From NCBI RefSeq assembly GCF_009687845.1, contig NZ_BLAD01000093.1, positions 1 through 53,060 of the forward strand: a stretch of DNA of 53,060 nucleotides, read 5' to 3'. This DNA is from Acrocarpospora corrugata. Its GTDB lineage: Bacteria > Actinomycetota > Actinomycetes > Streptosporangiales > Streptosporangiaceae. Made by a program: the position numbers and the translations under genes. Under the pieces are notes generated by a model. It was not told where the DNA came from. It ran no database searches and saw only the letters and a program-made list of their open reading frames with translations. Every line of letters begins with the position of its first letter. The stretch's first letter is position 1. Positions 6,781-30,049 of the stretch are shown here, in pieces.

Positions 6781-6892
6781 TCCCGAAGTACTCGACACCC
6801 TCCGCGCCTATCCCAGTTCTTTATAGGTATTATCGTGGCGTTTTATCCTTTGTGGGAGGATTAGTCACTATTTGAATTTCGTTTTGGCGTGT

Positions 6893-6926
6893 CACTTGTT
6901 CGGTACGTGTCGGACACGTACAAGTG
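6893..6926 (+). promoter_or_regulatory. Overlapping palindromes before the RHS toxin gene
   Basis: A perfect 9-1-9 inverted repeat, GTACGTGTC (6903-6911) and GACACGTAC (6913-6921), overlaps a second pair, CACTTGT (6893-6899) and ACAAGTG (6920-6926). The flanking 6781-6892 is clearly more AT-rich than its surroundings. This looks like an operator for a dimeric repressor or activator; no candidate regulator is adjacent. Confidence 0.5.
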
Positions 6927-6959
6927 GATCAGGGGACCGTTGAATCGAGGATGGCCATA

Positions 6960-9900: not shown

Positions 9901-12900
9901 CGCTGGAGGTCGACGACTACGGCAACGTGCTCAAGCAAGCCGCCATCGGCTACGGACGCCGCACCCAGGTTCGCACCATTGAGGCGCGACTGGTGCCCAA
10001 TCCCGGGCTGACCGGGCTGCCCGCGACCGATCAGGCCAAGCAGACCACCCCGCTGCTCACCTATACCGAAAACCGCGTCAGCAACGCCATCGATTCGCCC
10101 GACACGCATCGCAACCCCCTGCCCTGCGAGGCACTCACCTTCGAGCTGACGGGCTACCCAGCCACCGGGCCGGCCGGCCGTTATCAGGCCTCCGATCTGG
10201 TCGAACCGGATCGCCTGCGGCACAAGTTCACCGCTCCCGAGGTCGCCTACGAGGACACCGCCACCGGCGACCAGCGCCGCCGTCCCATCGAGTGGCTGCG
10301 TATCCTCTATCGCAGCGACGATCTCGCCGGCCTCCTGCCCTTCGGTGAGGTGCAGCCACTCGCCCTGCCCGGCGAGAGCTACCGGCTCGCCCTCACCCCC
10401 GGCCTGCTCGCGCGGGTCTTCCAGCGACAGCCGACCGAGCCCTTGCTGCCCGAGCCCGCGGCGGTGCTCTCCGGCCAGGGCGGCTACCTGCAGAGCCAGA
10501 CCCTCAAGGCGGACGGCCGCTTTCCCGCGAGCGATCCGGACGATCATTGGTGGATCCCCTCGGGACGGTCCTTTCACAGCACCGATCCCGCCAACGAGCT
10601 GGCTCAGGCCCGGCAGCATTTCTTCCGTCCCCGGCGCTACCGCGACCCCTTCGGCCAGGACACGCTCGTCGACTTCGACGTCTACGACCTGTTGACGGTC
10701 GAAACCCGCGACCCACTCGGCAACCGCGTCACCGTGGCGGCCAACGACTACCGCGTGCTGCAGCCACGTCTGGTCAGCGACCCGAACCGCAACCGGACCG
10801 AGATCGTCTTCGACACGCTGGGCCTGGTGGCGGGCACCGCACTGATGGGCAAGCCACTGCCCGCGCTGGTGGAAGGCGACACGGTCAACGGTCTCGGCAC
10901 CGACCTCACCCCCGTCGAGCTCGACCGCTTCTTCGCCGCGGCCGATCCACTCGCGAGTACGGCGCTGCTGCAAGATGCCACCACGCGCGTCATCTACGAC
11001 CTCGACCGATTCCGCCGTACTCGGCAGGCCAACCCCGACGACCCGACGAAATGGCGACCAGCTTGGTCCGCCACGCTCGCCCGCGAAACGCACGTCAGCG
11101 CGCCACTGCCGCCGCAGGGCCTGAAGATCCAGCTCAGCTTCTCCTACTCCGACGGCTTCGGCCGCGAGATCCAGAAGAAGATCCAGGCCGAGCCGGGACC
11201 ACTCGACGCCAGTCCACGCTGGGTCGGCAACGGCTGGACCATCTTCAACAACAAGGGCAAGCCGGTCCGCCAGTACGAGCCCTTCTTCAGCGCCACGCAT
11301 GACTTCGAGTTCGGCGTCACGGTCGGCGTCAGCCCCGTGCTGTTCTACGACCCGGCCGGGCGCGTCATCGCCACGCTGCACCCGAACCACACCTACGAGA
11401 AGGTGCTGTTCGATCCCTGGCAGCAGACCAGCTACGACGTCAACGACACCTGCGTCGTGGGCGACCCGCGCACCGACCCCGACATAGGCGGCTACGTCAC
11501 TGAATACTTCAGGACGCAGCCCTCCACCTGGCAGAGCTGGCACGCCCAGCGCATCGGCGGCGAGCTCGGGCCGGACGAGCGCAATGCCGCCCTGCGCGCC
11601 GAAGCACACGCCGACACGCCCACCACCGGGCATTTCGACGCGCTCGGCCGCCCGTTCCTGACCGTGGCGCGCAACCGCGTCGTCTGCCCCGGCCACGACC
11701 TCGACGGCAGCCAGGACAGCTTCGCCACCCGCGTCGAGCTGGACATCGAAGGCAACCAACGCGAAGTGCGCGACTCCCTCGGCCGCGTCATCATGAGGTA
11801 CGCCTACGACATGCTGGGCAACCCCCTCCACCAGCTCAGCATGGAGGCCGGCGCACGCTGGATGGTGAACGACGTGGCCGGCAAGCCGATCCGCGCCTGG
11901 GACAGCCGCGGCCACAACTTCACGACCACCTACGACGAACTGCGGCGCCCAACCGAGCAGACCGTACGCGGCACCACGGCGGCTTCCGATCCGCGCACCC
12001 TGAACCGCGACGTCCTGGTCGACAAGATCGAGTACGGCGAAGGTCAGGCCAACGCCGAAGCGCTCAACCTGCGTACCCGCATCTACCGGCACTTCGACTC
12101 CGCCGGAGTCGCCACCAACGCGCGGCTGGACACCAACGGCGACCCCACCGAGACCTACGACTTCAAGGGCAACCTGCTGTACGGCACCCGCTGCCTGGTC
12201 AGCGACTACACGGCCATCCCCGACTGGCGGCTGAATCCGGAGCTCGACGACGAGAGCTTCGAGAGCGGCACCCGCTACGACGCGCTCAACCGCCCCATCC
12301 AGTCCATCGCCCCGCACAGTGACACCGCCCCCAAGCGGAACGTCATCCAGCCGGTCTTCAACGAAGCCAACCTGCTGGAACGAGTGGACGTGTGGCTGGA
12401 GCGCGCCGCCGAACCCACCGCGCTCCTCGACCCCGGCTCCGAAGCGCCGTCGCCGGTGGGCGTCGCCGGTATCGGCTACAACGCCAAGGGCCAGCGCCTG
12501 CACATCGCGTACAAGAACGGCGCCGGCACCTCCTACAGCTACGACCCGCTCACATTCCGGCTCACTCAGCTGCTCACGCGCCGCGACGACCCAGGGCTGC
12601 AGAACCTGCGCTACACCTACGACCCCGCCGGCAACATCACCCACATCCAGGACGACGCCCAGCAGACCATCTACTTCAGGAACCAACGCGTCGAACCGAG
12701 CAACGACTACGTCTACGACGCCGTCTACCGGCTCATCCAGGCCACCGGCCGCGAGCATCTGGGCCAACTGGCGAGCGGCGAACGCAAACCGCCGACGGCA
12801 CCGGACGGCTTCAACGCCTTCCCCGCACGACTCGACCACCCCGGCGACGGCAACGCCATGGGCGCCTACACCGAGCGCTATGTGTACGACGCCGTCGGCA

Positions 12901-17305: not shown

Positions 17306-17493
17306 AAGTAAAGATCAACGCCGAGCGCTGCCAGGGACACGGCCGCTGCTACGACCTCGCCCCCGGCCTGTTCGGCGACGACGAAGAAGGTTACGGCCAG
17401 GTCCTCGGCGACGGCGTCGTGCCGCCCGGCGAGGAGCAGACGGCGCGACTGATCCTGGCCAACTGTCCGGAAAGAGCGATCGAGATCCTCTAG
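17302..17493 (+). CDS. 3Fe-4S-type ferredoxin with His in the cluster motif
   Basis: A 63-residue electron carrier for the neighbouring cytochrome P450. Cysteines 10, 16 and 55 (CQGHGRC, then NCPERAI) give the C-x2-X-x2-C-xn-C-P motif of actinobacterial P450 ferredoxins; the variable position is His13 rather than Cys, as expected for a [3Fe-4S] or an unusual cluster. The rest is acidic, which suits docking to the basic proximal face of a P450. The GTG start at 17302 overlaps the tetR stop and the P450 ATG follows 11 nt after the stop, so the three genes are one transcript. No ferredoxin reductase lies in the window. Confidence 0.9.
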   Translation: MKVKINAERCQGHGRCYDLAPGLFGDDEEGYGQVLGDGVVPPGEEQTARLILANCPERAIEIL

Positions 17494-17504
17494 GGAGGCA
17501 GCAC

Positions 17505-18776
17505 ATGACCGTCGACGACCGTTTCGAGCAGGACCTCATGGAGACGGTGCGGGACCGGGTGATCGACCCGCGCAGTGCGATCATCACCGGGCCCGTCTCC
17601 GACTGGGCGACCGACTTCTCCCATGCCGAGCCGGAGTGGGCCGCCGATCCGTACCTCATTCAGGATGAGTTGCGGGAGCGGTGCCCGATCGCGCACACCG
17701 AGCGGTTCGGGGGCGGCTGGCTGCCGACGCGCTATGAGGACGTCGCGGCGATCGCGTACGACACCGACCGGTTCTCGTCGCGGGCGATCATCATGAGCAA
17801 TGTCCGGCCGCCGCTCGAACTCGCGCCGGTGGGCGGGGTGCCGCCGATCTCCTCCGACCCGCCCTTCCACCACGACGCGCGCAAGCTCCTGCTCCCGGCG
17901 TTCACCAAGACCGAGGTGGCCAAGCAGGAGCAGGCGACGCGGGCGTTCTGCCACGCGCTCATCGACGAGTTGCAGGGGCAGCCGGTCATCGACGCCGCCC
18001 GCGACTACGCCCAGCACATTCCGATGCGCGTCATCGCCGACATGCTCGGCTTCCCGCCGGAGGACGGCCCGCAGTTCCGCGAGTTCGTCGAGCACGCGCT
18101 CGAAGGCGTCAACGCCCCGCCCGAGGAGCGCGTCCCCCGGATCCAGAAGCTGTTCGACTACCTGCTCACGCAGATCCGCGACCATGTCGACAACCCGCGC
18201 GACGACCTGACCACCTACCTCATCAATATCGAGTTGTACGGCCAGAAGCTCGCGCCGACCCACGTCGCCGGCACGATGTCCCTGCTGCTCATCGCCGGTA
18301 TCGACACGACCTGGAGCGCGATCGGCGCGTCCCTGTGGCACCTGGCGAAGACGCCGGCCGACCGCGAGCGCCTGGTCGCCGAGCCCGGCCTGCTGCCGAC
18401 CGCGATCGAGGAACTGCTTCGCGCGTACGCGCCGGTCACGATGGCCCGCCTGGTCAAGGCGGACATGCACTGGAACGGCGTCGACATGAAGGCCGACGAC
18501 TGGATCCTGCTGTCGTTCCCCGCGGCCAACCGCGATCCGGCCCAGTTCGACCGGGCCGGCGAAGTCGTCATCGACCGCGAGATCAACCGGCATGCCGCGT
18601 TCGGTCTCGGCATCCACCGGTGCGCTGGCTCCCATCTGGCGCGGATGGAGCTGCGGATCGCCCTGGAGGTCTGGCTGGAACGCTTTCCGGACTTCAGCCT
18701 CGCCGACCCCGCCGCGGTGACCTGGGCCACCGGCCAGGTCCGCGGACCACGCACCCTCCCACTCCGAATCGGCTGA
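17505..18776 (+). CDS. Cytochrome P450
   Basis: A 423-residue soluble bacterial P450. The heme-binding loop FGLGIHRCAG puts the thiolate ligand at Cys373. The I-helix oxygen-activation motif AGIDTT lies near 264-269, the K-helix ExxR is EELLR, and the usual SSDPPFHHDARKLLLPAF segment follows the B-C region. GGGAGG lies 8 nt before ATG 17505. It should hydroxylate or otherwise oxidise a hydrophobic substrate with electrons from the ferredoxin encoded just upstream. The sequence resembles the ferredoxin-linked CYP families of terpene and aromatic degradation in actinomycetes, but I cannot assign a substrate. The TetR gene at the head of the operon suggests substrate induction. Confidence 0.93.
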   Translation: MTVDDRFEQDLMETVRDRVIDPRSAIITGPVSDWATDFSHAEPEWAADPYLIQDELRERCPIAHTERFGGGWLPTRYEDVAAIAYDTDRFSSRAIIMSNVRPPLELAPVGGVPPISSDPPFHHDARKLLLPAFTKTEVAKQEQATRAFCHALIDELQGQPVIDAARDYAQHIPMRVIADMLGFPPEDGPQFREFVEHALEGVNAPPEERVPRIQKLFDYLLTQIRDHVDNPRDDLTTYLINIELYGQKLAPTHVAGTMSLLLIAGIDTTWSAIGASLWHLAKTPADRERLVAEPGLLPTAIEELLRAYAPVTMARLVKADMHWNGVDMKADDWILLSFPAANRDPAQFDRAGEVVIDREINRHAAFGLGIHRCAGSHLARMELRIALEVWLERFPDFSLADPAAVTWATGQVRGPRTLPLRIG

Positions 18777-18865: not shown

Positions 18866-18894
18866 TTGACTCGCGAGATTCCATCTATTATTGT
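18866..18894 (+). promoter_or_regulatory. Promoter of arsR1-arsM, near-leaderless
   Basis: TTGACT (18866-18871), 17-nt spacer, TATTGT (18889-18894). Transcription would start about 2-4 nt before ATG 18904. The spacer and start region are AT-rich within GC-rich DNA and probably hold the ArsR1 operator, though I see no long perfect dyad. Confidence 0.5.
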
Positions 18895-18903
18895 CGATTA
18901 ACG

Positions 18904-19239
18904 ATGAATGAGTCGATAGGGCCGCTGGGCCGAGCCGAGGCCGTGGAGTACGCGAGCTGGTTCAAGGCGCTGGCCGACGCCACCCGGATCCAGATCGTCT
19001 CCCTGCTGGCCAGGAGGCGGGAGCCGATGACCGTCGGCGAGATCGTCGCCGCGTCGGGGGTCGGGCAGTCGACGGTCTCCCACCATCTGAAGATCCTTGC
19101 CGATGTGCGGTTCGTGCTGGTGGAGCGGCGGGGCACCGCCGGCCTGTACCGGATCAACGGAGAATGCGTGAGCTGCTTCCCCACCGCCGCCGACGTGGTG
19201 ATGGGCAACCCCGTTCCCGTCACACCCACCTGTGAGTGA
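18904..19239 (+). CDS. arsR: ArsR-family arsenic-responsive repressor 1
   Basis: A 111-residue winged-helix repressor. WFKALADATRIQIVSLL and VGQSTVSHHLKILADV (about 55-68) form the helix-turn-helix. The metalloid site is probably the C-terminal pair Cys88-x2-Cys91 in GECVSCFPTAADVVMG, a signature I know from actinobacterial ArsR proteins that precede arsenite methyltransferases. There is no N-terminal Cys-Cys pair as in the other two ArsR proteins here, so it is a different ArsR subtype. ATG 18904 has no ribosome site but lies just after a promoter; ATG 18908 is out of frame. The stop at 19239 lies 10 nt before the arsM ATG, so the two are cotranscribed. Confidence 0.88.
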   Translation: MNESIGPLGRAEAVEYASWFKALADATRIQIVSLLARRREPMTVGEIVAASGVGQSTVSHHLKILADVRFVLVERRGTAGLYRINGECVSCFPTAADVVMGNPVPVTPTCE

Positions 19240-19249
19240 GGAAGACGCC

Positions 19250-20491
19250 ATGGCACAAGAGATGGCACACGAGAAGGTCATCGCCCGCTACTCCGCCCTG
19301 GCCCGTGCCGCACTGGACGGTGCGAGCGTGGTCGACTGCTCGGCCGAGGAGTTCGCGCAGGGCGGGTTCGGGACCGTCGGTTACGAGGACACCTCGCAGC
19401 TGCCCGATGGGGCGTTGCGGGCCAGTCTCGGTTGCGGCAATCCGGTCGCCGTGGCCGAACTGCGCGCCGGGGAGAGCGTGCTGGATCTGGGCTCGGGTGG
19501 TGGCATCGACGTGCTGCTGTCGGCGCGCCGGGTCGGCCCGTACGGCAAGGTATACGGCCTGGACGCCAGCCCCGACATGGTCGAGCTGGCCCGGCGCAAC
19601 GCGCGGGAGGCCGGCGCGGGCAACACCGAGTTCCTGCACGGCAGCATCGAGGCCGTCCCGCTGCCGGAGCGGGCGGTGGACGTCGTCATCTCCAACTGCG
19701 TGATCAACCTGTCCAGCGACAAGGCGGCCGTGCTGGCCGAGGCGTACCGGGTCTTGAAGCCCGGCGGCCGGTTCGGCGTCAGCGACGTGGTCAGCGACAC
19801 CGCCCTGGACGACGAACGCCGGGCGGCGGCCGAGCGACGGATCGGCTGCGTCGCCGGGTCCCTCACCGTTCAGAAGTATCGTGATCTGCTGCTGGCGGCC
19901 GGATTCGTCGGCGCGAGCATCACCAAGACCGCCGACCACGGCGACGGCGTGCATTCGGCGATCATCCAGGCGCGCAAGCCCGCCATCTCGCCCGGTCTGG
20001 AGATCCGCCCGATGCGCGACGCCGACGCCGGGCAGGTGCTGGCCATCTACCAGGCCGGCCTGGACACCGGCCAGGCCAGCTTCGAAACCGTGGCTCCCGG
20101 CTGGGATGCCTTCCTGGCGGGCAAGCTGGCCCGGCCGCGGTATGTGGCCGTCGACACCGAGACGGGCGGCGATGGTGAGGTTGTCGGCTGGGTGGCCGCC
20201 GCGCCGGTCTCGGCTCGCCCGGTGTACGCCGGGGTGGTCGAGCACAGCCTCTACGTCCACCCGGCCTGCCAGGCCCACGGCATCGGCCGGGCCCTGCTGA
20301 CCGCCTTCATCGCCGCCTGCCAGGACGCCGGGATCTGGACGATCCAGACGGGGATCTTCCCGGAGAATCTCGCGAGCCTGTCCCTGCACCAGGCGCTCGG
20401 CTTCCGCGTGGTCGGCACCCGCGAACGCATCGGCCGCCACCACGGCCTTTGGCGCGACGTCCTGCTGCTGGAACGGCGCACCGGTCCCTGA
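19250..20491 (+). CDS. arsM: Fusion of arsenite methyltransferase ArsM and acetyltransferase ArsN
   Basis: A 413-residue two-domain enzyme. Residues 1-245 are ArsM, an S-adenosylmethionine-dependent As(III) methyltransferase: SAM motif DLGSGGGID (79-87), SNCVINLSSDK, RVLKPGGRFGVSDVV, and the conserved cysteines 62 (LGCGNP), 150 and 200, with Cys30 as a fourth. Residues 249-413 are a GNAT domain of the ArsN1/phosphinothricin acetyltransferase type: EIRPMRDADA, ASFETVAPGW, VVGWVAAAPVS, QAHGIGRALL, WTIQTGIFPENLASLSLH, ERIGRHHGLWRDV. ArsN1 acetylates the organoarsenical antibiotic arsinothricin. ATG 19250 is preferred because GAGGAAG lies 5 nt upstream; GTG 19232 would overlap the arsR stop. One polypeptide thus could methylate inorganic arsenite and block a trivalent arsinothricin. 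Substrate of the GNAT half is inferred. Confidence 0.9.
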   Translation: MAQEMAHEKVIARYSALARAALDGASVVDCSAEEFAQGGFGTVGYEDTSQLPDGALRASLGCGNPVAVAELRAGESVLDLGSGGGIDVLLSARRVGPYGKVYGLDASPDMVELARRNAREAGAGNTEFLHGSIEAVPLPERAVDVVISNCVINLSSDKAAVLAEAYRVLKPGGRFGVSDVVSDTALDDERRAAAERRIGCVAGSLTVQKYRDLLLAAGFVGASITKTADHGDGVHSAIIQARKPAISPGLEIRPMRDADAGQVLAIYQAGLDTGQASFETVAPGWDAFLAGKLARPRYVAVDTETGGDGEVVGWVAAAPVSARPVYAGVVEHSLYVHPACQAHGIGRALLTAFIAACQDAGIWTIQTGIFPENLASLSLHQALGFRVVGTRERIGRHHGLWRDVLLLERRTGP

Positions 20492-20537
20492 GGGCACGCC
20501 GCCGCTTCGAGATCGATTGTGTCAAAATAGATGCTCA

Positions 20538-20559
20538 TTGATATCGATTGATCTCGATA
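20538..20559 (+). promoter_or_regulatory. Operator upstream of arsR2
   Basis: TATCGA-TTGATC-TCGATA at 20542-20559 is a perfect 6-6-6 inverted repeat; the same stretch also reads as two tandem 10-mers, TTGATATCGA and TTGATCTCGA (20538-20557). This is the size and symmetry expected for an ArsR dimer and it ends 10 nt before the arsR2 start, so binding should block initiation. Confidence 0.6.
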
Positions 20560-20569
20560 AGGACGTGTC

Positions 20570-20917
20570 GTGAAGGATCTCCCCCCGCTGGCCTGCTGCT
20601 CGCCGCTGGCCCGCGAACCGCTGGACGACCAGCGGTCGGCCGAGCTGTCGCGGGTGTTCAAGGCGCTCGGTGACCCGGTGCGGCTGCGCATTCTGTCGAT
20701 CGTGGCCGCGCATGAAAACGGTGAGGCGTGCGTATGCGATCTGACCGCCGCCTTCACGCTCTCGCAGCCGACCATCAGCCACCACCTGAAGGTGCTCAAG
20801 GAGGTGGGCCTGCTCACCAGCGAGCGCCGCGCCTCCTGGGTGTACTACCGCCTGGTACCCCAGACGCTCATCGACCTCTCGGGCCTACTGGCCGCACCCG
20901 AGCAGGTGAACCGGTGA
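20570..20917 (+). CDS. arsR: ArsR-family arsenic-responsive repressor 2
   Basis: A 115-residue As(III)-sensing repressor. The helix-turn-helix is LSQPTISHHLKVLKEVGLL, with the wing at ERRASWVYYRL. Cys9-Cys10 near the N-terminus and Cys54/Cys56 (ACVCDL) match the Corynebacterium-type ArsR site, in which an N-terminal Cys pair and a Cys before the recognition helix bind arsenite. GTG 20570 is preceded by AAGGA at a good distance. Its stop overlaps the GTG of the channel gene, so it is the first gene of an arsR-aqp unit. It is a close paralogue of ArsR3 at 24287. Confidence 0.92.
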   Translation: MKDLPPLACCSPLAREPLDDQRSAELSRVFKALGDPVRLRILSIVAAHENGEACVCDLTAAFTLSQPTISHHLKVLKEVGLLTSERRASWVYYRLVPQTLIDLSGLLAAPEQVNR

Positions 20918-21639
20918 TCTCTCTGTCCCGCCGGCTGCTGGCCGAATTTCTGGGTACGGGCCTGCTGGTGGCCGTGGTCGTGGGCTCGGGCATCATGGCC
21001 CAGACCCTGTCCCCGGGTCAGATCGGCCTGCAGTTACTGGAGAATTCCACGGCCACGGTGTTCGGTCTGGCCGTGCTGATCGTGGTCCTCGGGCCGGTGT
21101 CGGGCGCGCACTTCAACCCGGTGGTGTCGATGGCCGACTGGTGGCAGGGACGCCAGAGCGGAAACGGCCTGTCGGTTCGCGAGCTGGGCGGCTATGTCCT
21201 GGCCCAGGTGCTGGGGGCGATCGGCGGCGCGATGCTGGCCAACGCCATGTTCGCCGAGCCGGTCGTCACCTGGTCGGTGACCGAGCGGTCCAGCGCGGCT
21301 TTGTGGCTGGGCGAGGTGGTCGCGACGGCGGGCCTGATCCTGGTGATCTTCGCGCTCACCCGTTCCGGCCGTACGGCTGTAGCGCCGATGGCGGTGGCCG
21401 CCTACATCGGCGCGGCCTACTGGTTCACTTCCTCCACCAGCTTCGCCAACCCGGCCGTCACCATCGGCCGCGCCTTCTCCGACACCTTCGCCGGGATCGC
21501 CCCCGCCTCCGTCCCCGGCTTCGTACTCGCCCAGCTGGTCGGCGGGGTCGTCGGCTTCCTGCTGGTCCAGGGGCTGTTCGGCCGTCCGGGCGCTGATGTG
21601 CCGGAGCCGGTGATGGGGGATTCGGCGGCCGGTCGCTGA
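20914..21639 (+). CDS. aqpS: MIP-family channel, AqpS-like arsenite channel
   Basis: A 241-residue aquaglyceroporin-family channel with six membrane segments and both pore motifs: NPV in SGAHFNPVVS (loop B) and NPA in SFANPAVT (loop E). The first motif deviates from the canonical NPA. In ars operons such channels (AqpS of Sinorhizobium) let arsenite formed inside the cell flow out down its gradient. GTG 20914 overlaps the arsR2 stop by 3 nt, so expression is arsenic-controlled and translationally coupled. Because no ArsB or ACR3 gene lies in the window, this is the best candidate for the arsenite exit route of the plus-strand cluster. A residue after NPA differs from water channels, but selectivity cannot be judged by eye. 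Confidence 0.9.
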   Translation: MISLSRRLLAEFLGTGLLVAVVVGSGIMAQTLSPGQIGLQLLENSTATVFGLAVLIVVLGPVSGAHFNPVVSMADWWQGRQSGNGLSVRELGGYVLAQVLGAIGGAMLANAMFAEPVVTWSVTERSSAALWLGEVVATAGLILVIFALTRSGRTAVAPMAVAAYIGAAYWFTSSTSFANPAVTIGRAFSDTFAGIAPASVPGFVLAQLVGGVVGFLLVQGLFGRPGADVPEPVMGDSAAGR

Positions 21640-21669
21640 TCCGTTCACCTGCCCGCCACCAGATCGCCG

Positions 21670-21684
21670 TTTGACGCGTTCAAA
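21670..21684 (+). promoter_or_regulatory. Upstream dyad before the ArsR-phosphatase fusion gene
   Basis: TTTGA-CGCGT-TCAAA is a perfect 5-5-5 inverted repeat 24 nt before the start codon. It is a plausible ArsR site, distinct from the start-codon dyad just downstream. Confidence 0.45.
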
Positions 21685-21685
21685 T

Positions 21686-21722
21686 CCAGTCAGCGAATAT
21701 TGAGTCAATGGACGCTGACTGG
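21686..21722 (+). promoter_or_regulatory. Nested palindrome over the start codon of the ArsR fusion gene
   Basis: Outer arms CCAGTCAGCG (21686-21695) and CGCTGACTGG (21713-21722) are perfect 10-bp inverted repeats. An inner palindrome TTGAGTCAA (21700-21708) shares exactly the same centre at 21704. The ATG at 21708 lies inside. A DNA operator, or an RNA hairpin hiding the start codon, would both give tight autoregulation. Confidence 0.6.
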
Positions 21723-22388
21723 ATTGAGGCGGTGGCGGCGCGGGCCCGGGTGCACGCCGCGCTCGGGGACCCCGCGCGGCTGTCGATCGTGGACCGGCTC
21801 GCTCTGGGCGACGCATCGCCGGGCGAGCTCGGCCAGGAACTGGGCCTGGCCACCAACCTGTTCGCCCATCACATGAAGATCCTGCACGAGGCGGGCGTGG
21901 TCGAGCGGCACCGCTCGGAAGGCGACCGGCGCCGCACCTATCTGCGGCTGATGCCGGGCAGCCTGGACCGGCTGCTGCCCGCCCCGCTGCGGCGGGCTCC
22001 CCGGGTGGTGTTCGTGTGCACCCACAACTCCGCCCGCTCCCAGCTCGCGGCGGCCCTGTGGCGGCGGCGCAGCGCGGTGCCCGCCGCCTCGGCCGGTACG
22101 GTTCCGGCCCAGCGGGTCAATCCGCAGGCGGTCGAGCTCGCCCGCCGCCATGGGCTGAACCTGGACACGGCCCGAACCACCCACCTCCACGACGTGCTGC
22201 GGCCCGATGACCTGGTCGTGGCCGTCTGCGACAGCGCCCACGAACAACTCGGCGACCGCGACCGCCTGCACTGGTCGATCCCCGACCCCGTCCGCGCAGA
22301 CACCGACGCCGCCTTCGAACACGCCTTCACCGACATCACCGGCCGCATCGACCGGCTGGCCCCCGCCATCCAATCCCCGCAGGAGTAA
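21708..22388 (+). CDS. ArsR repressor fused to ArsC-like low-MW phosphatase domain
   Basis: A 226-residue fusion. Residues 1-90 form an ArsR winged helix: ARVHAALGDPARLSIVDRL, then GLATNLFAHHMKILHEAGVV and a wing with GDRRRTYLRL. Residues 98-220 form a low-molecular-weight phosphatase/arsenate-reductase fold with the P-loop VCTHNSARSQ (C104-x5-R110) and the late acid region HWSIPDP (DP loop). The sensor and an enzyme that makes or binds arsenite are thus in one chain. Whether the enzyme half is active cannot be told; the resolving cysteines of the neighbouring ArsC proteins are not obvious, although Cys residues follow near VAVCDS. ATG 21708 lies within a nested palindrome. The next gene begins 3 nt after its stop. 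Confidence 0.88.
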   Translation: MDADWIEAVAARARVHAALGDPARLSIVDRLALGDASPGELGQELGLATNLFAHHMKILHEAGVVERHRSEGDRRRTYLRLMPGSLDRLLPAPLRRAPRVVFVCTHNSARSQLAAALWRRRSAVPAASAGTVPAQRVNPQAVELARRHGLNLDTARTTHLHDVLRPDDLVVAVCDSAHEQLGDRDRLHWSIPDPVRADTDAAFEHAFTDITGRIDRLAPAIQSPQE

Positions 22389-22391
22389 GTC

Positions 22392-23045
22392 ATGCCCGAG
22401 ACCTACCAGCGTGCCGGCCTGAGCGTCGACCAGCAGCACGCCCTGCTCACGGCCGCCCGTAACCTCGGCGACCAGTTCACCGGCACCTTCAGCACCGAGA
22501 CCATCGAACGTTTCCTGCACACCAGCTACGACCAGTTCGCCGAGAAGGCCGTCATCCCCACCTTCCTGCCGCTGCTGGCCGAACGCTTCGCCCGCCAGCG
22601 CCTGACCGCCCTGGCCCGGGTAGAAGGCAGCGCTGACGACGGCCTCCCGATCGTGCTGTTCCTATGCGTGCACAACGCCGGACGCAGCCAGATGGCCATG
22701 GGCTTCTTCGCCCACCTGGCCGCAGACCGCGCGGTGGCCTGGTCGGGCGGGTCGGAGTTCGCCGGCGAGATCAACCCCGCCGCCGTGGCCAGCATGGCCG
22801 AACGCGGCATCGACATCTCGAAAGAGTTCCCGAAGCCGTGGACCGAGGAGATCATCCGTGCCGCCGACGTGGTGGTCACCATGGGCTGCGGCGACGCCTG
22901 CCCCATCTACCCCGGCAAGCGCTACCTGGACTGGGAACTGGACGACCCCGCGGGCAAGAGCGCCGAGGATGTACGGCCGATCCGCGATGAGATCGAACGC
23001 CGCGTCCGCGCCCTCCTGGACGAGCTCCACGTCCCCGCCTCCTGA
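22392..23045 (+). CDS. arsC: Arsenate reductase ArsC with N-terminal helical domain
   Basis: A 217-residue arsenate reductase. Residues 1-80 form a helical domain (QFTGTFSTETIERFLHTSYD) common in actinobacterial ArsC. Residues 86-212 are the low-MW phosphatase fold with LCVHNAGRSQ (nucleophile Cys92, Arg98) and the redox segment MGCGDACPIYPGKRYLDW with two further cysteines. It reduces As(V) to As(III) using mycothiol/mycoredoxin or thioredoxin; the coupling is not decidable here. ATG 22392 follows GGAG at good distance and starts 3 nt after the ArsR-phosphatase fusion gene, so both are on one transcript. It has the same layout as the next gene, suggesting duplication. Confidence 0.92.
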   Translation: MPETYQRAGLSVDQQHALLTAARNLGDQFTGTFSTETIERFLHTSYDQFAEKAVIPTFLPLLAERFARQRLTALARVEGSADDGLPIVLFLCVHNAGRSQMAMGFFAHLAADRAVAWSGGSEFAGEINPAAVASMAERGIDISKEFPKPWTEEIIRAADVVVTMGCGDACPIYPGKRYLDWELDDPAGKSAEDVRPIRDEIERRVRALLDELHVPAS

Positions 23046-23080
23046 CCACGACCTGACCACGACATCTCCGGAACGCACCC

Positions 23081-23734
23081 GTGACTGCCATCCCCGCCGC
23101 TGACGGCCACCTGGCCGGCGACCCGCTGCTGAACCGGATCGTCGATCAGCTCAGCACCCGTTTCGCGGGGCGGTTCTGCACCGAGACGATCAGAGGCTAC
23201 GTGCACGACTCCTACCGCGGTCTGCGACAGGACGCCCGGGTCATGGCGCACCTGCATATCCTGACCCAGCGATTCGCCACCGAGCGGCTCACCGCGCTGG
23301 CCCAGGTGAAGGGGTACATCCCCAAGCTGGAGGTGGAGGTGCTGTACGTGTGCGGCGGCAACGCCGGCCGCTCCCAGATGGCCGCCGCCTTCACCCGCAA
23401 GTACGGCGGGGACTGGCTGCACGTACGGACCGCCGGTTCCCGGCCCGCCGCCACCATCCACCCCCCGGTCGTTCAGGCGCTGGCCGAGGTCGGCCTGTTT
23501 CCGGCGATGGAGTTCCCCAAGCCGCTGACCGACGACGTCGTCCAGGCCGCCGACGTGGTGGTCACCCTGGGCTGCGCGGACGCCTGCCCGGTCCACCCGG
23601 GCAGACGCTACCTGGACTGGGACCTGCCCGACCCCCGCGACCGTCCGATCGATGAGGTCCGGGCGATCAGGGACCGCATCGACACCCAGGTACGCCAGTT
23701 GGTCGCAGAGCTCAAACAGCCTGTTCCGCTGTAG
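23081..23734 (+). CDS. Second ArsC-type reductase with altered P-loop
   Basis: A 217-residue paralogue of the preceding arsC. The N-terminal helical domain is retained (RFAGRFCTETIRGYVHDSYR). The catalytic domain has VCGGNAGRSQ, so Cys91 and Arg97 are kept but the usual Val-His of CVHNAGRS is replaced by Gly-Gly. The redox segment LGCADACPVHPGRRYLDWD is conserved. The start is GTG 23081, 36 nt after the previous stop, with only a weak ribosome site. It is probably still an arsenate reductase; the P-loop change may alter substrate or rate. An alternative is a redox partner or a decaying duplicate, but the frame is intact. Confidence 0.85.
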   Translation: MTAIPAADGHLAGDPLLNRIVDQLSTRFAGRFCTETIRGYVHDSYRGLRQDARVMAHLHILTQRFATERLTALAQVKGYIPKLEVEVLYVCGGNAGRSQMAAAFTRKYGGDWLHVRTAGSRPAATIHPPVVQALAEVGLFPAMEFPKPLTDDVVQAADVVVTLGCADACPVHPGRRYLDWDLPDPRDRPIDEVRAIRDRIDTQVRQLVAELKQPVPL

Positions 23735-23789
23735 CCCACATCCGCTGTGATTCCACAGGAATATCCGCGCGAGGAAAGGATCTGTTCGC

Positions 23790-24188
23790 ATGAGCGACAA
23801 GCCCAGCGTTCTGTTCGTCTGCGTCCACAACGCCGGGCGCTCGCAGATGGCCGCCGGATGGCTCACCCACCTGGCCGGTGACCGCATCCAGGTCCGCTCG
23901 GCGGGTTCGGCCCCGGCCGAGTCCATCAACCCGGCCGCCATCGCGGCCATGCGCGAGGTCGGCATCGACATCACCGCCGAGCAGCCCAAGGTCCTCACCG
24001 TCGAGGCGGTGGAGGCCTCCGACGTGGTCATCACCATGGGCTGCGGAGACGCCTGCCCGATCTTCCCCGGCAAACGTTATGAGGACTGGAAACTGGAAGA
24101 CCCCGCCGGTCAGGGCATCGACGCGGTCCGGCCGATCCGCGATGAGATCCACGCCCGCATCGAAAAGCTCATCAAGGAACTGACCTAG
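23790..24188 (+). CDS. arsC: Third ArsC: single-domain arsenate reductase
   Basis: A 132-residue arsenate reductase without the N-terminal domain. Cys11 and Arg17 lie in FVCVHNAGRSQMAAGWL, and MGCGDACPIFPGKRYEDW holds the further Cys pair. It resembles the single-domain ArsC of many actinobacterial ars operons. GAGGAAAGG lies about 10 nt before ATG 23790. It closes a run of four tandem genes with low-MW phosphatase folds. A weak hairpin near 24264 separates it from the convergent arsR3. Confidence 0.92.
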   Translation: MSDKPSVLFVCVHNAGRSQMAAGWLTHLAGDRIQVRSAGSAPAESINPAAIAAMREVGIDITAEQPKVLTVEAVEASDVVITMGCGDACPIFPGKRYEDWKLEDPAGQGIDAVRPIRDEIHARIEKLIKELT

Positions 24189-24263
24189 AAGGCCCCGCCA
24201 GCAAGCCGCACCACCGTGGCCGAGCCATGGCTCAGGTCTTGCGCCACTGATGGCCCGGGAGGC

Positions 24264-24282
24264 CGATCCGCTGCCGGGATCG
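24264..24282. terminator. Weak hairpin between convergent ars units
   Basis: CGATCC (24264-24269) and GGATCG (24277-24282) can pair around a 7-nt loop, and a 12-bp palindrome GAGCCATGGCTC lies at 24222-24233. Both are modest; either may end the converging transcripts. Confidence 0.3.
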
Positions 24283-24286
24283 ACGA

Positions 24287-24664
24287 TCAGACGGTGACGA
24301 GCCCGACGTCGACCGGCCCGGCGGACGCGGGCTCGGCCAGCGGGGTGAACAGGGCGCCCAGCTTGGCGACCACGGCCGGGACGATCCAGTAGTAGACCCA
24401 GGTGCCCCGGCGTTCGGAGTCGATGAGTCCGGCGGTGCGCAGGACCTTCAGGTGGTGGGAGATCGTGGGGGCGGTCAGGTTGAAGGCGTCGGTCAGGTCG
24501 CAGACGCAGGTCTCGCCGCCCGCGTGGGAGCCGATCATCGACAGCAGGCGGAGCCGTACCGGATCGGCGACCGCCTTGAGCAGGGTGGCCATCTCGGCGG
24601 CGGCCGATTCCGACAGCGGTTCGCGCGCGATCGGCGCGCAGCAGGCGATGGTGACGTCTGCCAT
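24287..24664 (-). CDS. arsR: ArsR-family arsenic-responsive repressor 3
   Basis: A 125-residue repressor closely related to ArsR2. It has Cys8-Cys9 near the start and Cys53/Cys55 in TCVCDL for arsenite, recognition helix LTAPTISHHLKVLRTAGLI and wing ERRGTWVYYWIV. ATG 24664 is chosen because AAGGGG lies about 7 nt upstream; GTG 24673 is in frame but overlaps that site. It is the last gene of a minus-strand unit after the flavoprotein and MFS genes, 33 nt behind the MFS stop. A TATAAT box overlaps that stop codon, so arsR3 may also have its own promoter. Confidence 0.9.
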   Translation of the reverse strand: MADVTIACCAPIAREPLSESAAAEMATLLKAVADPVRLRLLSMIGSHAGGETCVCDLTDAFNLTAPTISHHLKVLRTAGLIDSERRGTWVYYWIVPAVVAKLGALFTPLAEPASAGPVDVGLVTV

Positions 24665-24697
24665 GGCGAACACCCCTTACTTCGATATCTGTCTAAA

Positions 24698-25921
24698 TTA
24701 TAGGCGATGGTAGGCCAACAGGGCCAACGCGGCGATCGCGCAGGCCGTTGCCACCGCGCCCATCACCCAGGTGTAACCCGCCGCCTGGGCCAGCGCGACC
24801 GCGCCGAGTGGAGCCAGCGCCTTGTCGGCGACGGAGAAGACCGCGATCCGGCCGGACAGGGTGGCGTAGGCGGCGGTGCCGTACCGGTCGGTGAGCAGGT
24901 GGGGCAGGGTGATGGAGGCGATGCCGAAGCCGAGCCCGAACAGCAGTACGCAGCCGACAGCTCCCGGCACGCTCCGTCCGAACGGGGGGAGCAGCAGGAC
25001 GGCGACGCCCTGCAGGGCGAAGATCGCGGCGGCGATGAGGGCGGCGGGCAGGCGGCGCTGCAGGCCGGTGGTGATCAGCCGTCCGGTCACCGACAGCACG
25101 CCCAGCAGGCCGGCCAGGGTGGCGGCCAGGACGGGTGAGTGCCCGAGGCGGATGAGGTAGCTGATGAGCAGGACCGACATCACCGACACCGCGCCGCCGT
25201 TGGCGGTGAAGGCGATCACCAGCAGCCAGAACGGCCGTGCCCGGGTGGCGGCTTTGACGATCCCGTCCCGCTCGCCGCGCGGCCGGGGATGGGTACGGCG
25301 GCGCAGTACGAGCGCGTGCAGCGGGATGGCGGTGAGGCCGTAGACCAGGGCCAGGATGATCAGGGCCTGGCGCCAGCCGTACCACTCGACCAGCAGGCCG
25401 GTCAGCGGCAGGAAGATCGCCGAGGCGAAGCCCGCGACGATGGTGACCGCCAGCAGCGCGTTCGCCCGGCCGCGCCCGTTGCCGTCGAACCAGGCGACGA
25501 TGACGGCGAAGGCCGACTCGTACAGCACCATCGCGCAGGCGACGCCGATGACGGCCGACACCGCGTACAGCTGCGGCAGGTTCTCCACCTGCGACCAGGC
25601 CAGCACGGCGGACGTACCGAGGATCGACCCGGCCGTCATCAGCCCGCGGCCGCCGCGGGCGTCCAGCCAGCGGCCGGCCGGCGGCGCGCACAGGGCGGCG
25701 ATCAGGATCGAGATGGTGAGGGCGGCGGCGATCTGCGGGGCGCTGGCGTGCAGGTCGGCTGCCATGGGAGCGAGGAAGACGGAGAAGGCGTAATAGAGGA
25801 CCCCGTACCCGATGGTCTGGGTGACGGCCAGCGCCGCGACCATCGGCCAGCCGTGGCCGGGACGCGGCAGCCCGCCGCCCCTTGCCTCAGGGACGGCGGT
25901 CTCGGCGGTGGAACCCGACAT
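24698..25921 (-). CDS. MFS transporter, candidate arsenical exporter
   Basis: A 407-residue major-facilitator protein with 12 predicted membrane segments. The first begins WPMVAALAVTQTIGYGVLYY, and the loop between helices 2 and 3 has GRWLDARGGRGLM in place of the usual G-x3-D-R-x-GR-R motif. ATG 25921 is chosen for the GGAGAGACGGAG just upstream. It is 17 nt downstream of the flavoprotein gene and 33 nt upstream of arsR3, so it is part of an arsenic-regulated operon. The substrate could be arsenite, a methylated or acetylated arsenical, or a product of the flavoprotein. It is not ArsB or ACR3. No resemblance strong enough to name ArsJ, ArsK or ArsP is claimed. Confidence 0.87.
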   Translation of the reverse strand: MSGSTAETAVPEARGGGLPRPGHGWPMVAALAVTQTIGYGVLYYAFSVFLAPMAADLHASAPQIAAALTISILIAALCAPPAGRWLDARGGRGLMTAGSILGTSAVLAWSQVENLPQLYAVSAVIGVACAMVLYESAFAVIVAWFDGNGRGRANALLAVTIVAGFASAIFLPLTGLLVEWYGWRQALIILALVYGLTAIPLHALVLRRRTHPRPRGERDGIVKAATRARPFWLLVIAFTANGGAVSVMSVLLISYLIRLGHSPVLAATLAGLLGVLSVTGRLITTGLQRRLPAALIAAAIFALQGVAVLLLPPFGRSVPGAVGCVLLFGLGFGIASITLPHLLTDRYGTAAYATLSGRIAVFSVADKALAPLGAVALAQAAGYTWVMGAVATACAIAALALLAYHRL

Positions 25922-25938
25922 CTCCGTCTCTCCTCTTT

Positions 25939-27330
25939 TCAGCCGCAGCAGTTGCCACCGCCGACGGTGACCAGGGGCAGCGGGGCGGCGAGCAGGCCGC
26001 CGCTGATGCCGGTGGCCAGGCCCACCCGCTGCTCCTGTGCCTCGGCCAGGCCGGAGGAGCACACTCCCGTCTCGGGCAGGTCGAGCTGCACGTCGCGGGC
26101 GGCTTCCCAGTCACCGGCCAGCGCGGCCGCCACGGAGCGGACCTGCTCGTACCCGGTGGCCATCAGGAAGGTCGGGGCGCGGCCGTAGCTCTTGACGCCG
26201 ACGGCATAGTAGCCGGGCTCGGGATGGGACAGCTCGTCGACGCCGTGGGCGGGGACGGTGCCGCAGGAATGCTCGTTGGGATCGATCAGCGGGGCCAGCG
26301 CCCGGGTGGAGCCGAGGATCGGATCCAGATCGAGGCGCAGTTCGGAGGCGATGGAGTGGTCGGGCCGGTATCCGGTGGCGGAGATGACCTGGTCGACGGT
26401 GATGGCCTGCTCGGCGCCGGAGGGGTCGCGGCTGACCACCTCGACGCCCCGCCCGGTGGGCGTGAGCCGGTGGGTGAAGAACCCGTTCAGGAGCGTGATG
26501 CGGCCGGACTCGACATGCGCCCGCAGGCGGGTGCCGAGCGCACCACGCGCGGGCAGCGCGTCGGCGGCGCCTCCCCCGTAGGTACGGCCTGCGCTGCCGG
26601 CGCGGATCGCCCAGGTGATCTGGGCTCCTTCGAGCTGGGCCAGGGCCAGCAGCGTGGTGGCGGCGGAATGGCCCGCGCCGACGACCAGGGTGTGTTTGCC
26701 CGCGTAGCGGTCGCGGTCGGCTCCGAGCACGTCGGGCAATGCATCATCGATGGACACCTCACTCTCGCCGTAGGCGGGCAGACCGCTGGCGCCGAGCACG
26801 TTGGGGCTGGTGTAGGTGCCGGAGGCGTCGATGATCGCCCGCGCCCGCAGTTCCTCGCCGGAGCCGGTCCTGATGAGGAAGGGGGCCTGGTCGCGGCCGT
26901 TGGTGCGGACGCGGTCGTAGCCGAGGCGGCTGATCGCGGTGACCTTCACGCCGAACCGGACCGCGGGGCCGAGGAGCTTGCCAAGCGGGGCGAGGTAGCC
27001 GTCGATGAGTTCGGCGCCGGTGGGCAGCCAGTCGGGATCGGGGGCGCTCCAGCCGCCGGCTTCCAGCAGGCGGCGGGCGGCGGCGTCGATGTTGTACTTC
27101 CAGGGGCTGAAGACGCGGACATGCCCCCACTGGGCGACCGACGCGCCGGCCTGGTTTCCCGCTTCCAGAACCAGGAAGTCCAGGCCACGTTCGGCCAGGT
27201 GCGCGGCGGCGGCCAGCCCGACCGGCCCGGCGCCGATCACCACCACCGGCAGCTGCTCCAGGCCGCCATCCGAAGCGGCCGAGGCGGCGGGTTCGAGCTC
27301 GGCGGTGTTGGGGCCGCAGCATCCACTCAT
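25939..27330 (-). CDS. ArsO-like FAD/NAD(P) flavoprotein with terminal cysteine pairs
   Basis: A 463-residue flavin-dependent oxidoreductase of the monooxygenase type. The FAD-binding Rossmann motif is VVVIGAGPVGLAAAAHLAERG (about 32-52); the NAD(P) motif is TLVVGAGHSAATTLLAL (about 215-231); ISATGYRPD marks the C-terminal FAD contact. Both ends carry cysteine pairs, SGCCGPN at residues 2-8 and GGNCCG at the very end, which could bind arsenite. Proteins like this (ArsO) sit in Streptomyces ars clusters. ATG 27330 follows GAGGAGA. It is the first gene of the minus-strand unit with the MFS gene and arsR3, and upstream lie two strong dyads. Oxidation of an arsenical before export is a reasonable guess, not shown. 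Confidence 0.85.
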   Translation of the reverse strand: MSGCCGPNTAELEPAASAASDGGLEQLPVVVIGAGPVGLAAAAHLAERGLDFLVLEAGNQAGASVAQWGHVRVFSPWKYNIDAAARRLLEAGGWSAPDPDWLPTGAELIDGYLAPLGKLLGPAVRFGVKVTAISRLGYDRVRTNGRDQAPFLIRTGSGEELRARAIIDASGTYTSPNVLGASGLPAYGESEVSIDDALPDVLGADRDRYAGKHTLVVGAGHSAATTLLALAQLEGAQITWAIRAGSAGRTYGGGAADALPARGALGTRLRAHVESGRITLLNGFFTHRLTPTGRGVEVVSRDPSGAEQAITVDQVISATGYRPDHSIASELRLDLDPILGSTRALAPLIDPNEHSCGTVPAHGVDELSHPEPGYYAVGVKSYGRAPTFLMATGYEQVRSVAAALAGDWEAARDVQLDLPETGVCSSGLAEAQEQRVGLATGISGGLLAAPLPLVTVGGGNCCG

Positions 27331-27408
27331 GGCTGTTCTCCTCACGATCAACTGACGTCGGGTCGGCCACCGGCCGACTGCGGGGCAGGCCGTCCGGCGC
27401 GCCCCGGC

Positions 27409-27430
27409 TGATTAGAGATTCGTCTAATCA
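27409..27430 (-). promoter_or_regulatory. ArsR-type operator before the flavoprotein operon
   Basis: TGATTAGA (27409-27416), spacer GATTCG, TCTAATCA (27423-27430) is a perfect 8-6-8 inverted repeat in the leader, 79 nt before the flavoprotein start. It fits an ArsR dimer and probably binds ArsR3. Confidence 0.65.
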
Positions 27431-27451
27431 AGCTGAGGGCAGCATGCCTCA

Positions 27452-27491
27452 TTGATTCGAGTCCTGTCAATTTAGATGGATACCGAATCAA
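27452..27491 (-). promoter_or_regulatory. Second dyad and promoter region of the flavoprotein operon
   Basis: TTGATTCG (27452-27459) and CGAATCAA (27484-27491) are perfect 8-bp inverted arms 24 nt apart. Between them the minus strand reads TTGACA, a good -35 box. The arms may bind two dimers or loop the promoter. Confidence 0.5.
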
Positions 27492-29080: not shown

Positions 29081-29221
29081 GCAGAGATGCGCGATACCTG
29101 CCCGCTTCCTGTCCAGCCCGGTCGGCTTCGTGTAATTTTCGGTACTCATCCTCCCCGGAGGCCGGTAGCCGCGGGAAAACCGTTCGGCCGGTGGGATGAT
29201 CGCGGCCTAGCATGCGGAGCC

Positions 29222-30049
29222 GTGAGCAGAAGATTGCGGGGGATTGCGGCGGTCAACGCGCAGATCGTCGCCGAGGGGGAGTACCGGACCGACGATGGCG
29301 TCCTCGTCGTCGTTGGCTCGGCGGTGGAGGCGGCGGTCGCCGGCACCGTGAGTTATTCACCGGACGGGTTCCTTGATGCGCCCCGCCCGACGGTCGGTCT
29401 GCGGACGTCTTTTCAGGTGACCGGTGAGAATAGCCTTCAGGCCGCGCGACGGCTGCACCTCGTCGGGGGTGGGCGGATCGCCGTTCTGAACTTCGCTTCG
29501 GCTCGTAATCCGGGAGGTGGCTATTTCGGGGGTGCCAAGGCCCAGGAAGAGGACCTCTGCCGCAACGCGCTGCTGTATCCCTGCCTGCTGCGGGCTCCTG
29601 ACTATTACGAAGCGCACCGTGCTTCCGCTGATCTGCTCTACAGTCACCGGGTTATCTGGTCGCCGGATGTTCCGGTGCACCGTGGGGATGACGGGCGGTT
29701 GCTGCGGGAGCCGTACCCCGTCTCGTTCTTGACCTCTCCGGCGCCGAATGCCGGGCAGGCGTTGCGGCGTGATCCGGGTTTGCGGGAGCGGATCCGGGGG
29801 GCGCTCCATCAGCGCGCGGAGCGGGTTCTGGCCGTGGCCGCCCATCATGGCGCGCGGCGGCTGGTTCTCGGCGCGTGGGGGTGCGGGGTGTTCCGTAATG
29901 ATCCGCGTGAGGTTGCCGAGGCCTTCCATGTCCATCTCACGGTGGGTGGCGCGTTCGCGGAGGTGTTTGAACGGGTGGTGTTCGCGGTCTGGGATCGGTC
30001 GGAGGATTCCGTCAACCGGGCCGCGTTCGGTGAACGTTTCAGTGCTTAA
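29222..30049 (+). CDS. Bacterial-type poly(ADP-ribose) glycohydrolase (TIGR02452 family)
   Basis: A 275-residue macrodomain enzyme that removes ADP-ribose polymers. The catalytic signature GGG-x7-QEE is complete: NPGGGYFGGAKAQEEDLCR near residue 100. An N-terminal helix (RGIAAVNAQIVAEG) and the late LGAWGCGVFRNDP segment complete the bacterial PARG pattern. GTG 29222 is chosen because it precedes the family's usual N-terminal helix; GGAG lies very close, so the ribosome site is imperfect and upstream GTG/ATG codons remain possible. The stop shares TTAA with the stop of the convergent rrf2 gene. No ADP-ribosyltransferase is obvious in the window, except that the RHS toxin tail has unknown activity. 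Confidence 0.85.
   Translation: MSRRLRGIAAVNAQIVAEGEYRTDDGVLVVVGSAVEAAVAGTVSYSPDGFLDAPRPTVGLRTSFQVTGENSLQAARRLHLVGGGRIAVLNFASARNPGGGYFGGAKAQEEDLCRNALLYPCLLRAPDYYEAHRASADLLYSHRVIWSPDVPVHRGDDGRLLREPYPVSFLTSPAPNAGQALRRDPGLRERIRGALHQRAERVLAVAAHHGARRLVLGAWGCGVFRNDPREVAEAFHVHLTVGGAFAEVFERVVFAVWDRSEDSVNRAAFGERFSA

Follow-up and report, generated by a model that had tools for sequence, protein, structure and literature searches.

The arsenic gene cluster described here lies in Acrocarpospora corrugata, on a stretch of 53,060 nucleotides (the window) from contig 93 (NZ_BLAD01000093.1) of a draft genome of 9.27 Mb in 170 contigs. It comprises eleven genes, each an open frame with a match to the family named. 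The forward strand carries the stand-alone repressor gene arsR1 (18904..19239), a gene fusing ArsM to an ArsN1-like protein (19250..20491), arsR2 (20570..20917), a MIP channel gene that overlaps the end of arsR2 by four bases (20914..21639), an ArsR-ArsC fusion (ArsR-LMWPc, hereafter RC; 21708..22388), two ArsC genes with an N-terminal three-helix domain (Ca, 22392..23045; Cb, 23081..23734), and a stand-alone ArsC gene (Cc, 23790..24188). The reverse strand carries a unit whose first gene codes for a FAD/NAD(P) oxidoreductase (25939..27330), followed by an MFS transporter (24698..25921) and, as last gene, arsR3 (24287..24664). The matches are to Pfam and NCBIfam for ArsR1, ArsR2, the ArsM fusion, and the three ArsCs, and to NCBIfam for ArsR3. 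Frames and family matches bear out the inventory of a first-pass annotation of this DNA, and the comparison of gene order that it proposed shows much of the set recurring in relatives with the order kept, which is more than chance would bring.

The channel is of the type found in ars operons, with a match to the MIP family (PF00230, 82.8 bits) and two NPA-type motifs, NPV and NPA; across 17 aligned proteins the first motif varies among NPV, NPL, and NPM, and the second is NPA in all. Its distribution is complementary to that of the ACR3 pump. In the main comparison sample, 297 genomes of the order, ACR3 is present in 191 and an ars-type MIP (E <= 1e-45 to the MIP of the window) in 72, and only 7 genomes have both, against 46.3 expected. 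The same is found around the ArsM-ArsN1 fusion, which occurs with one open frame over most of both halves at 72 loci in 71 genomes, the window included. Within 10 kb of these loci there is a MIP gene in 18 cases, an ACR3 gene in 23, and both in none (5.75 expected), and the ACR3 search found nothing in 16 of the 18 genomes that hold a MIP locus. The MIP occupies the place of ACR3, since a frame of ArsM-ArsN, (ArsC), ArsR, and exporter is common to nine MIP loci and 19 ACR3 loci. Among the best 80 loci from named genomes, several of which are short contigs, there are 17 with MIP, 23 with ACR3, and none with both; with the first eight removed because of their overlap with the earlier loci, the figures are 12, 22, and 0 (n = 72). 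The exchange of channel for pump is thus strong by counts, and borderline after allowing for relatedness (see following). A further idea, that more ArsC copies accompany the channel, was dropped because the ranges overlap (1–4 copies at MIP loci, 0–3 at ACR3 loci).

ArsB and ACR3 are missing from the island, as first noted, and the search that the first-pass annotation had recommended found none elsewhere in the draft genome over the cut-offs of TIGR00832 or TIGR00935. The ACR3 model has zero matches at E <= 1e-40. The two SBF proteins of the genome have BASS as best model, below its cut-off, and score only 44 and 32 bits with ACR3 (cut-off 282.8). The TIGR00832 search likewise found no ACR3 in any of the four Acrocarpospora genomes sampled (that of the window, G144, G216, and G259).

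Distinct motifs precede the genes of the cluster. The conserved element before the start codon of arsR1 (18883..18903, forward strand) reads ATCTATTATTGTCGATTAACG in the window, one mismatch from TATCGTCGAT, which is present upstream of 58 of 62 ArsR1 homologues and of none of the homologues of ArsR2 (33), RC (25), ArsR3 (43), the FAD protein (28), or the MFS protein (25). The predicted promoter/operator region of the arsR2-MIP unit (20520..20559, forward strand) holds a copy with one mismatch to TGTCAATATAGA, a pattern upstream of 19 of 33 ArsR2 homologues. The RC gene has a candidate operator at 21689..21703 on the forward strand, with a TTGAC seen by eye about 13 bases upstream. A motif of the TCAA...ATTGA type is present in 23 of 30 RC upstream regions (background 0.0018 per 170 nucleotides) and is absent from those of ArsR1 (0 of 62), ArsR2 (0 of 33), and ArsR3 (0 of 43), with one case among 28 FAD genes. 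On the reverse strand, the candidate operator of arsR3 (24680..24703), ATTTAGAC...ATATCGAA, overlaps the end of the MFS gene, and a motif of the ATTTAGA...TCGAA type precedes 28 of 43 ArsR3 homologues. The candidate operator of the FAD gene (27408..27430, reverse strand) is the palindrome TGATTAGACGAATCTCTAATCA; a related TTAGA...TCTAA motif precedes 13 of 28 FAD homologues and also 5 of 43 ArsR3 homologues. Because the patterns were derived from the very loci that were counted, what counts as evidence here is how the genes differ from one another and not the absolute counts. Upstream motifs and gene order together suggest four regulatory units, for methylation/acetylation, for the channel, for arsenate reduction, and for methylarsenite oxidation/export, and relatives carry these four units in differing combinations.

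The cluster is best read as a modular set for inorganic and organic arsenic, probably with four regulatory units, to which we assign a probability of about 0.65. In this scheme, which takes substrates, directions, sensing, and transcript boundaries from sequence, unit A (ArsR1 and ArsM-ArsN1) would methylate As(III), and its second half would probably acetylate arsinothricin or a like amino acid. Through unit B (ArsR2 and MIP), As(OH)3 would flow out down its gradient, in the place of ACR3, and unit C (RC and the three ArsCs) would create that gradient by reducing arsenate that enters via phosphate uptake. Unit D (the reverse-strand flavoprotein, MFS protein, and ArsR3) would oxidise and export methylarsenite; since ArsM makes methylarsenite, it would guard the cell against methylarsenite both of its own making and from competitors. 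If this is right, channel and pump repeatedly swap in one gene slot, and the question of when a channel equals a pump could be put to natural, nearly matched clusters.

The first-pass annotation had proposed instead one combined path, in which arsenate is reduced, the product methylated or acetylated and oxidised, and export goes through the channel or the MFS protein; in this view the latter would stand in for the pump. All the genes are indeed adjacent, no protein passes the curated ACR3 or ArsB cut-offs, and ArsK is described in the title of Shi 2018 as conferring resistance to arsenite and methylarsenite. However, the MFS gene is found at 13 of 23 ACR3 loci and at 8 of 18 MIP loci (2 of 31 with neither exporter), which rules it out as a substitute for the pump. 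The FAD gene behaves similarly (15 of 23, 11 of 18, and 4 of 31, respectively), and because both genes occur about equally with either exporter, they probably serve another purpose. Relatives also carry the units separately, and the upstream motifs are distinct. A single linear path is therefore improbable; what stands of it is the presence of genes for reduction, methylation, and acetylation, the channel, and the lack of a pump over curated cut-offs.

A number of results weigh against reading the cluster as four units around a channel. The absence of a pump is strong but not absolute, in view of the draft state of the genome. Outside the island, three proteins pass the low cut-off (22.2) of the Pfam ArsB family PF02040, with 59–80 bits, and may conceivably carry arsenite; with the ArsB model TIGR00935 they reach 92–114 bits (cut-off 415), and the MamN model, whose cut-off they also miss, is closer. 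Three permeases, also outside the island, exceed the ArsP_1 cut-off; a scan limited to the best of them matched no model named ArsP. Neither exporter is found within 10 kb at 31 of the 72 fusion loci, several of them cut by contig ends. The fusion scores 261.5 bits with the ArsM model NF008823, just below the cut-off of 263, and 107.9 bits with ArsN1 family A (NF040503, cut-off 170), ahead of ArsN1b (76.8) and PAT (52.9), hence the name ArsN1-like. The MFS protein is nearest ArsK (NF033733, 175.7 bits), the best of seven models matched, and does not reach the cut-off of 400, so that the label of MFS exporter given at first keeps its family (PF07690, 126 bits) and is narrowed to ArsK-like. The name ArsV-like for the flavoprotein comes from its gene neighbours.

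Relatedness among the genomes is the remaining point of this kind. On the tree of the fusion the exporter type changes at least seven times, and eight times with one long row removed. The label shuffles shown give 12, 12, and 14 changes against the 8 observed, so exporter type is partly inherited. Genomes are not independent; on the starred branches a test of independent pairs gives 0.4 the same way and 5.2 the opposite way, with a borderline median p of 0.0625. These figures, together with 25 of 69 inner branches drawn open, would suit an exclusion that is mostly inheritance, old lineages of channel and pump having been kept with no repeated functional exchange. Yet seven to eight changes at least are required on the tree, Streptomyces holds 9 MIP and 5 ACR3 loci among the best 80, and both exporter types occur within genus g7 and even within the starred group of five rows to which the window belongs. 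We therefore regard inheritance as an unlikely main cause, and repeated exchange as the better account.

Among the closest known systems is the aqpS operon of Sinorhizobium meliloti, where a MIP stands in the place of ArsB, beside an arsenate reductase, and releases As(III) made from arsenate (PMC6205960, PMC4435449). The window differs from it in being from an actinomycete and in having an array of ArsCs behind RC, the ArsM-ArsN1 fusion, and an MFS gene. In a survey of 2015, none of the 18 ars-operon MIPs had another transporter beside it, and the 35 MFS genes went with ArsB (2) or ACR3 (33) (PMC4435449); the cluster of the window, with MIP and MFS and without either pump, falls outside both rules. 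Channel and arsenate reductase are coupled in another actinomycete, Salinispora, as an AqpS-ArsC fusion (Wu 2010, as given in PMC6205960 and PMC12838822), whereas in the window channel and reductases are separate genes. Clusters of Rhodococcus and other actinomycetes also have several ArsCs and ArsR-ArsC fusions; that of Rhodococcus has ACR3, and the accessible part of its description notes no ArsM-ArsN fusion (PMC6514093). The parts of the cluster are of known kinds and singly resemble known arsenic genes, but they stand in a new arrangement: their combination and the repeated exchange of pump and channel look new.

The ArsM-ArsN1 fusion has 413 residues, with ArsM at about 1–243 and a GNAT domain at about 252–410, and relatives also have it in a single frame. 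At E <= 1e-60 it has matches in 149 of the 297 genomes, many to one half only; the set of 72 loci leaves out such single-domain matches and a partial match in G111 starting at residue 136, and some of its N-termini are short or diverged. Cys62, Cys150, and Cys200 of the ArsM half are kept in 92–97% of the 72 fusions and align with solved ArsMs; we take them to be the equivalents of Cys72, Cys174, and Cys224 of CmArsM. ArsN is known fused to ArsC or ArsD (PMC6205960), and in Brevundimonas ArsRM the arsenite methyltransferase is likewise fused, to ArsR and not to ArsN1 (PMC10190100). Searches of the open-access literature, as far as its text is searchable, found no description of an ArsM-ArsN fusion, and this recurrent protein is apparently undescribed. 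Known substrates of characterised ArsN1 are arsinothricin and phosphinothricin, both of which it acetylates (PMC6465285); this argues against methylation and acetylation being, as first thought, alternative fates of one arsenical. The fusion would put arsenite methylation and resistance to an organoarsenical antibiotic into one protein of actinomycetes from antibiotic-rich soil.

Whether the two halves work together is another matter. Fusion may give mere co-expression without catalytic coupling, ArsN1 serving to resist arsinothricin made by neighbours, and we put this at even odds. It agrees with the separate, neighbouring arsM and arsN1a genes of a Paenibacillus plasmid (a second such plasmid is known from a listing), which are likely a forerunner of the fusion, and with the lack of an ArsL relative in the genome, in a search that had no positive control. 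On the other side, both halves share one frame at 72 loci, and the linker between them is short in the 18 rows listed, which is not proof of coupling. Production of arsinothricin by the host was considered and dropped on the same ArsL result. Separately, an aquaporin gene forms part of a cluster annotated for arsinothricin biosynthesis (arsQ, arsL, arsM, and ArsN1 family B) on a plasmid of Pseudomonas amygdali (L223).

The stand-alone repressors mostly retain sets of three or four cysteines. ArsR1 has Cys88, Cys91, and Cys110 near its C terminus, a pattern shared by roughly 50 of 60 listed homologues, and ArsR2 and ArsR3 both have an N-terminal CysCys and a CVC motif. Among ArsR2 homologues, the N-terminal CysCys is found at 6 of 10 MIP loci (window included) and at 1 of 22 ACR3 loci, where there is mostly a single N-terminal cysteine. 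Ca has the features of the Cg_ArsC1' type, that is, the three-helix N-terminal domain, the P-loop cysteine, and CxxxC, and matches 3T38, presumably Cg_ArsC1' itself, with E = 4.7e-57 over residues 20–211. Its Cys92, Cys166, and Cys170 are kept in 94% of 16 rows, and Cys11, Cys85, and Cys89 of Cc are all present in 39 of 39.

RC differs from both groups. Its P-loop cysteine (Cys104 in the window) and the cysteine at +70 (Cys174) are present in 30 of 30 rows, and the window protein has no counterpart of the other downstream cysteine of ArsCs and hence lacks the set of three of an arsenate reductase. The ArsR half is cysteine-free in the window and in 22 of the 30 rows. In seven of the remaining eight a common cysteine lies 72 residues ahead of the P-loop, accompanied in one protein by a second; the eighth has its only cysteine at another position. 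Because the ArsR half of the window protein has no As(III)-binding cysteine and the ArsC half still has the nucleophile and one of its two partner cysteines, it is conceivable that RC is an arsenate-sensing repressor. Arsenate, by binding or through a Cys104–Cys174 bond, would free the dedicated operator of the reductase array, so that the substrate would induce its own reductases and the channel would stay under an arsenite-type ArsR. To our knowledge, ArsRs sense trivalent arsenic, and such sensing, if true, would set RC apart from them. We consider it doubtful: its odds are slightly lowered by the cysteine shared by seven of 30 relatives, RC genes also occur near ACR3 (8 of 20 picked loci), and ArsR-ArsC fusions form a class described before (PMC6514093, PMC6205960).

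Within the fusion loci, RC is found at 8 of 18 with MIP, 0 of 23 with ACR3, and 1 of 31 with neither. Among RC relatives with at least 70% identity, at least 14 of 15 are inside 5 kb of a MIP gene, and among more distant ones at least 4 of 35, both being lower bounds from a comparison of 50 of the 53 RC places with part of the MIP places. A further 20 RC loci, several picked for a nearby ACR3 or MIP, divide into 8 with ACR3, 6 with MIP, and 6 with neither, and only 2 pairs were usable when RC was tested against MIP on the tree. The idea that RC is specific to channel clusters was dropped, as RC also occurs near ACR3 and, in distant relatives, is mostly not near MIP. The same genome has a second, different ArsR-LMWPc fusion (L039, C70:26077-26469) with, by eye, a full three-cysteine set.

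The flavoprotein had first been called ArsO-like, a name that is ruled out by a score of 60.2 bits with the ArsO model NF040505 (cut-off 425), about equal to that with YpdA (59.0); in Streptomyces FR-008 the annotated ArsO and the relative of the FAD protein are two separate genes. The protein has CysCys pairs at both ends, and an alignment of ten proteins, with identities as low as 52%, shows no change at C356, C424, or the pair C461–C462. In the family at large (22 rows, two of low identity being dropped) a CysCys near the C terminus is present in 20 of 20, and the N-terminal pair in fewer. The AlphaFold model has a mean predicted local distance difference test of 65.1, with the tail 419–463 under 50, and its matches (YpdA, thioredoxin reductase, FNR) are weak, at superfamily level, with template modelling scores of about 0.3.

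In the reverse-strand unit the order is FAD, MFS, ArsR3, and some relatives have the FAD gene adjoining arsR3 without the MFS gene. At E <= 1e-40, relatives are found in 124 plasmid records from actinomycetes, proteobacteria, and bacilli, and neighbourhoods were read in 7 of these. An ArsR gene directly adjoins in 5 of the 7 (H17, H21, H23, H33, and H62) and is one gene off in H36, and in H19 a MarR gene takes its place, one gene away. An MFS gene directly adjoins in 4 of the 7 (H21, H23, H33, and H36), one of them, on an Ensifer plasmid, annotated arsK. A GNAT gene adjoins in H17 and H19 and is one gene off in H33. The usual company of arsV is ArsR and arsK, in the order ArsR-arsV-arsK. Given the ArsR and ArsK/MFS genes next to the relatives, the flavoprotein is most likely a methylarsenite oxidase of the ArsV type, and ArsV-like is the best name for it. 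Oxidation, as first proposed, thus keeps its flavoprotein, loses ArsO, and is better placed on methylarsenite. The known counterpart is ArsV, which oxidises methylarsenite, with ArsK or ArsW exporting methyl arsenicals (PMC10080717); the window has the same pairing of flavoprotein and exporter, likened to it by gene neighbours, and with the terminal CysCys pairs noted above. Further methylarsenite oxidases named are ArsH, ArsU, and ArsZ (PMC11719878).

Outside the cluster, two long adjoining open frames on the reverse strand (6861-9191, 776 residues; 9192-13130, 1312 residues) have no Pfam match at 1e-10 and lie opposite an open frame of 2612 codons; either strand may be the coding one. Directly 5′ of the cluster there is a cytochrome P450-like gene (17490-18776, forward strand), for which the specific P450 models are all below cut-off, and downstream, on the same strand, a gene for a microbial-type PARG (PF10021, 152 bits; 29087-30049).

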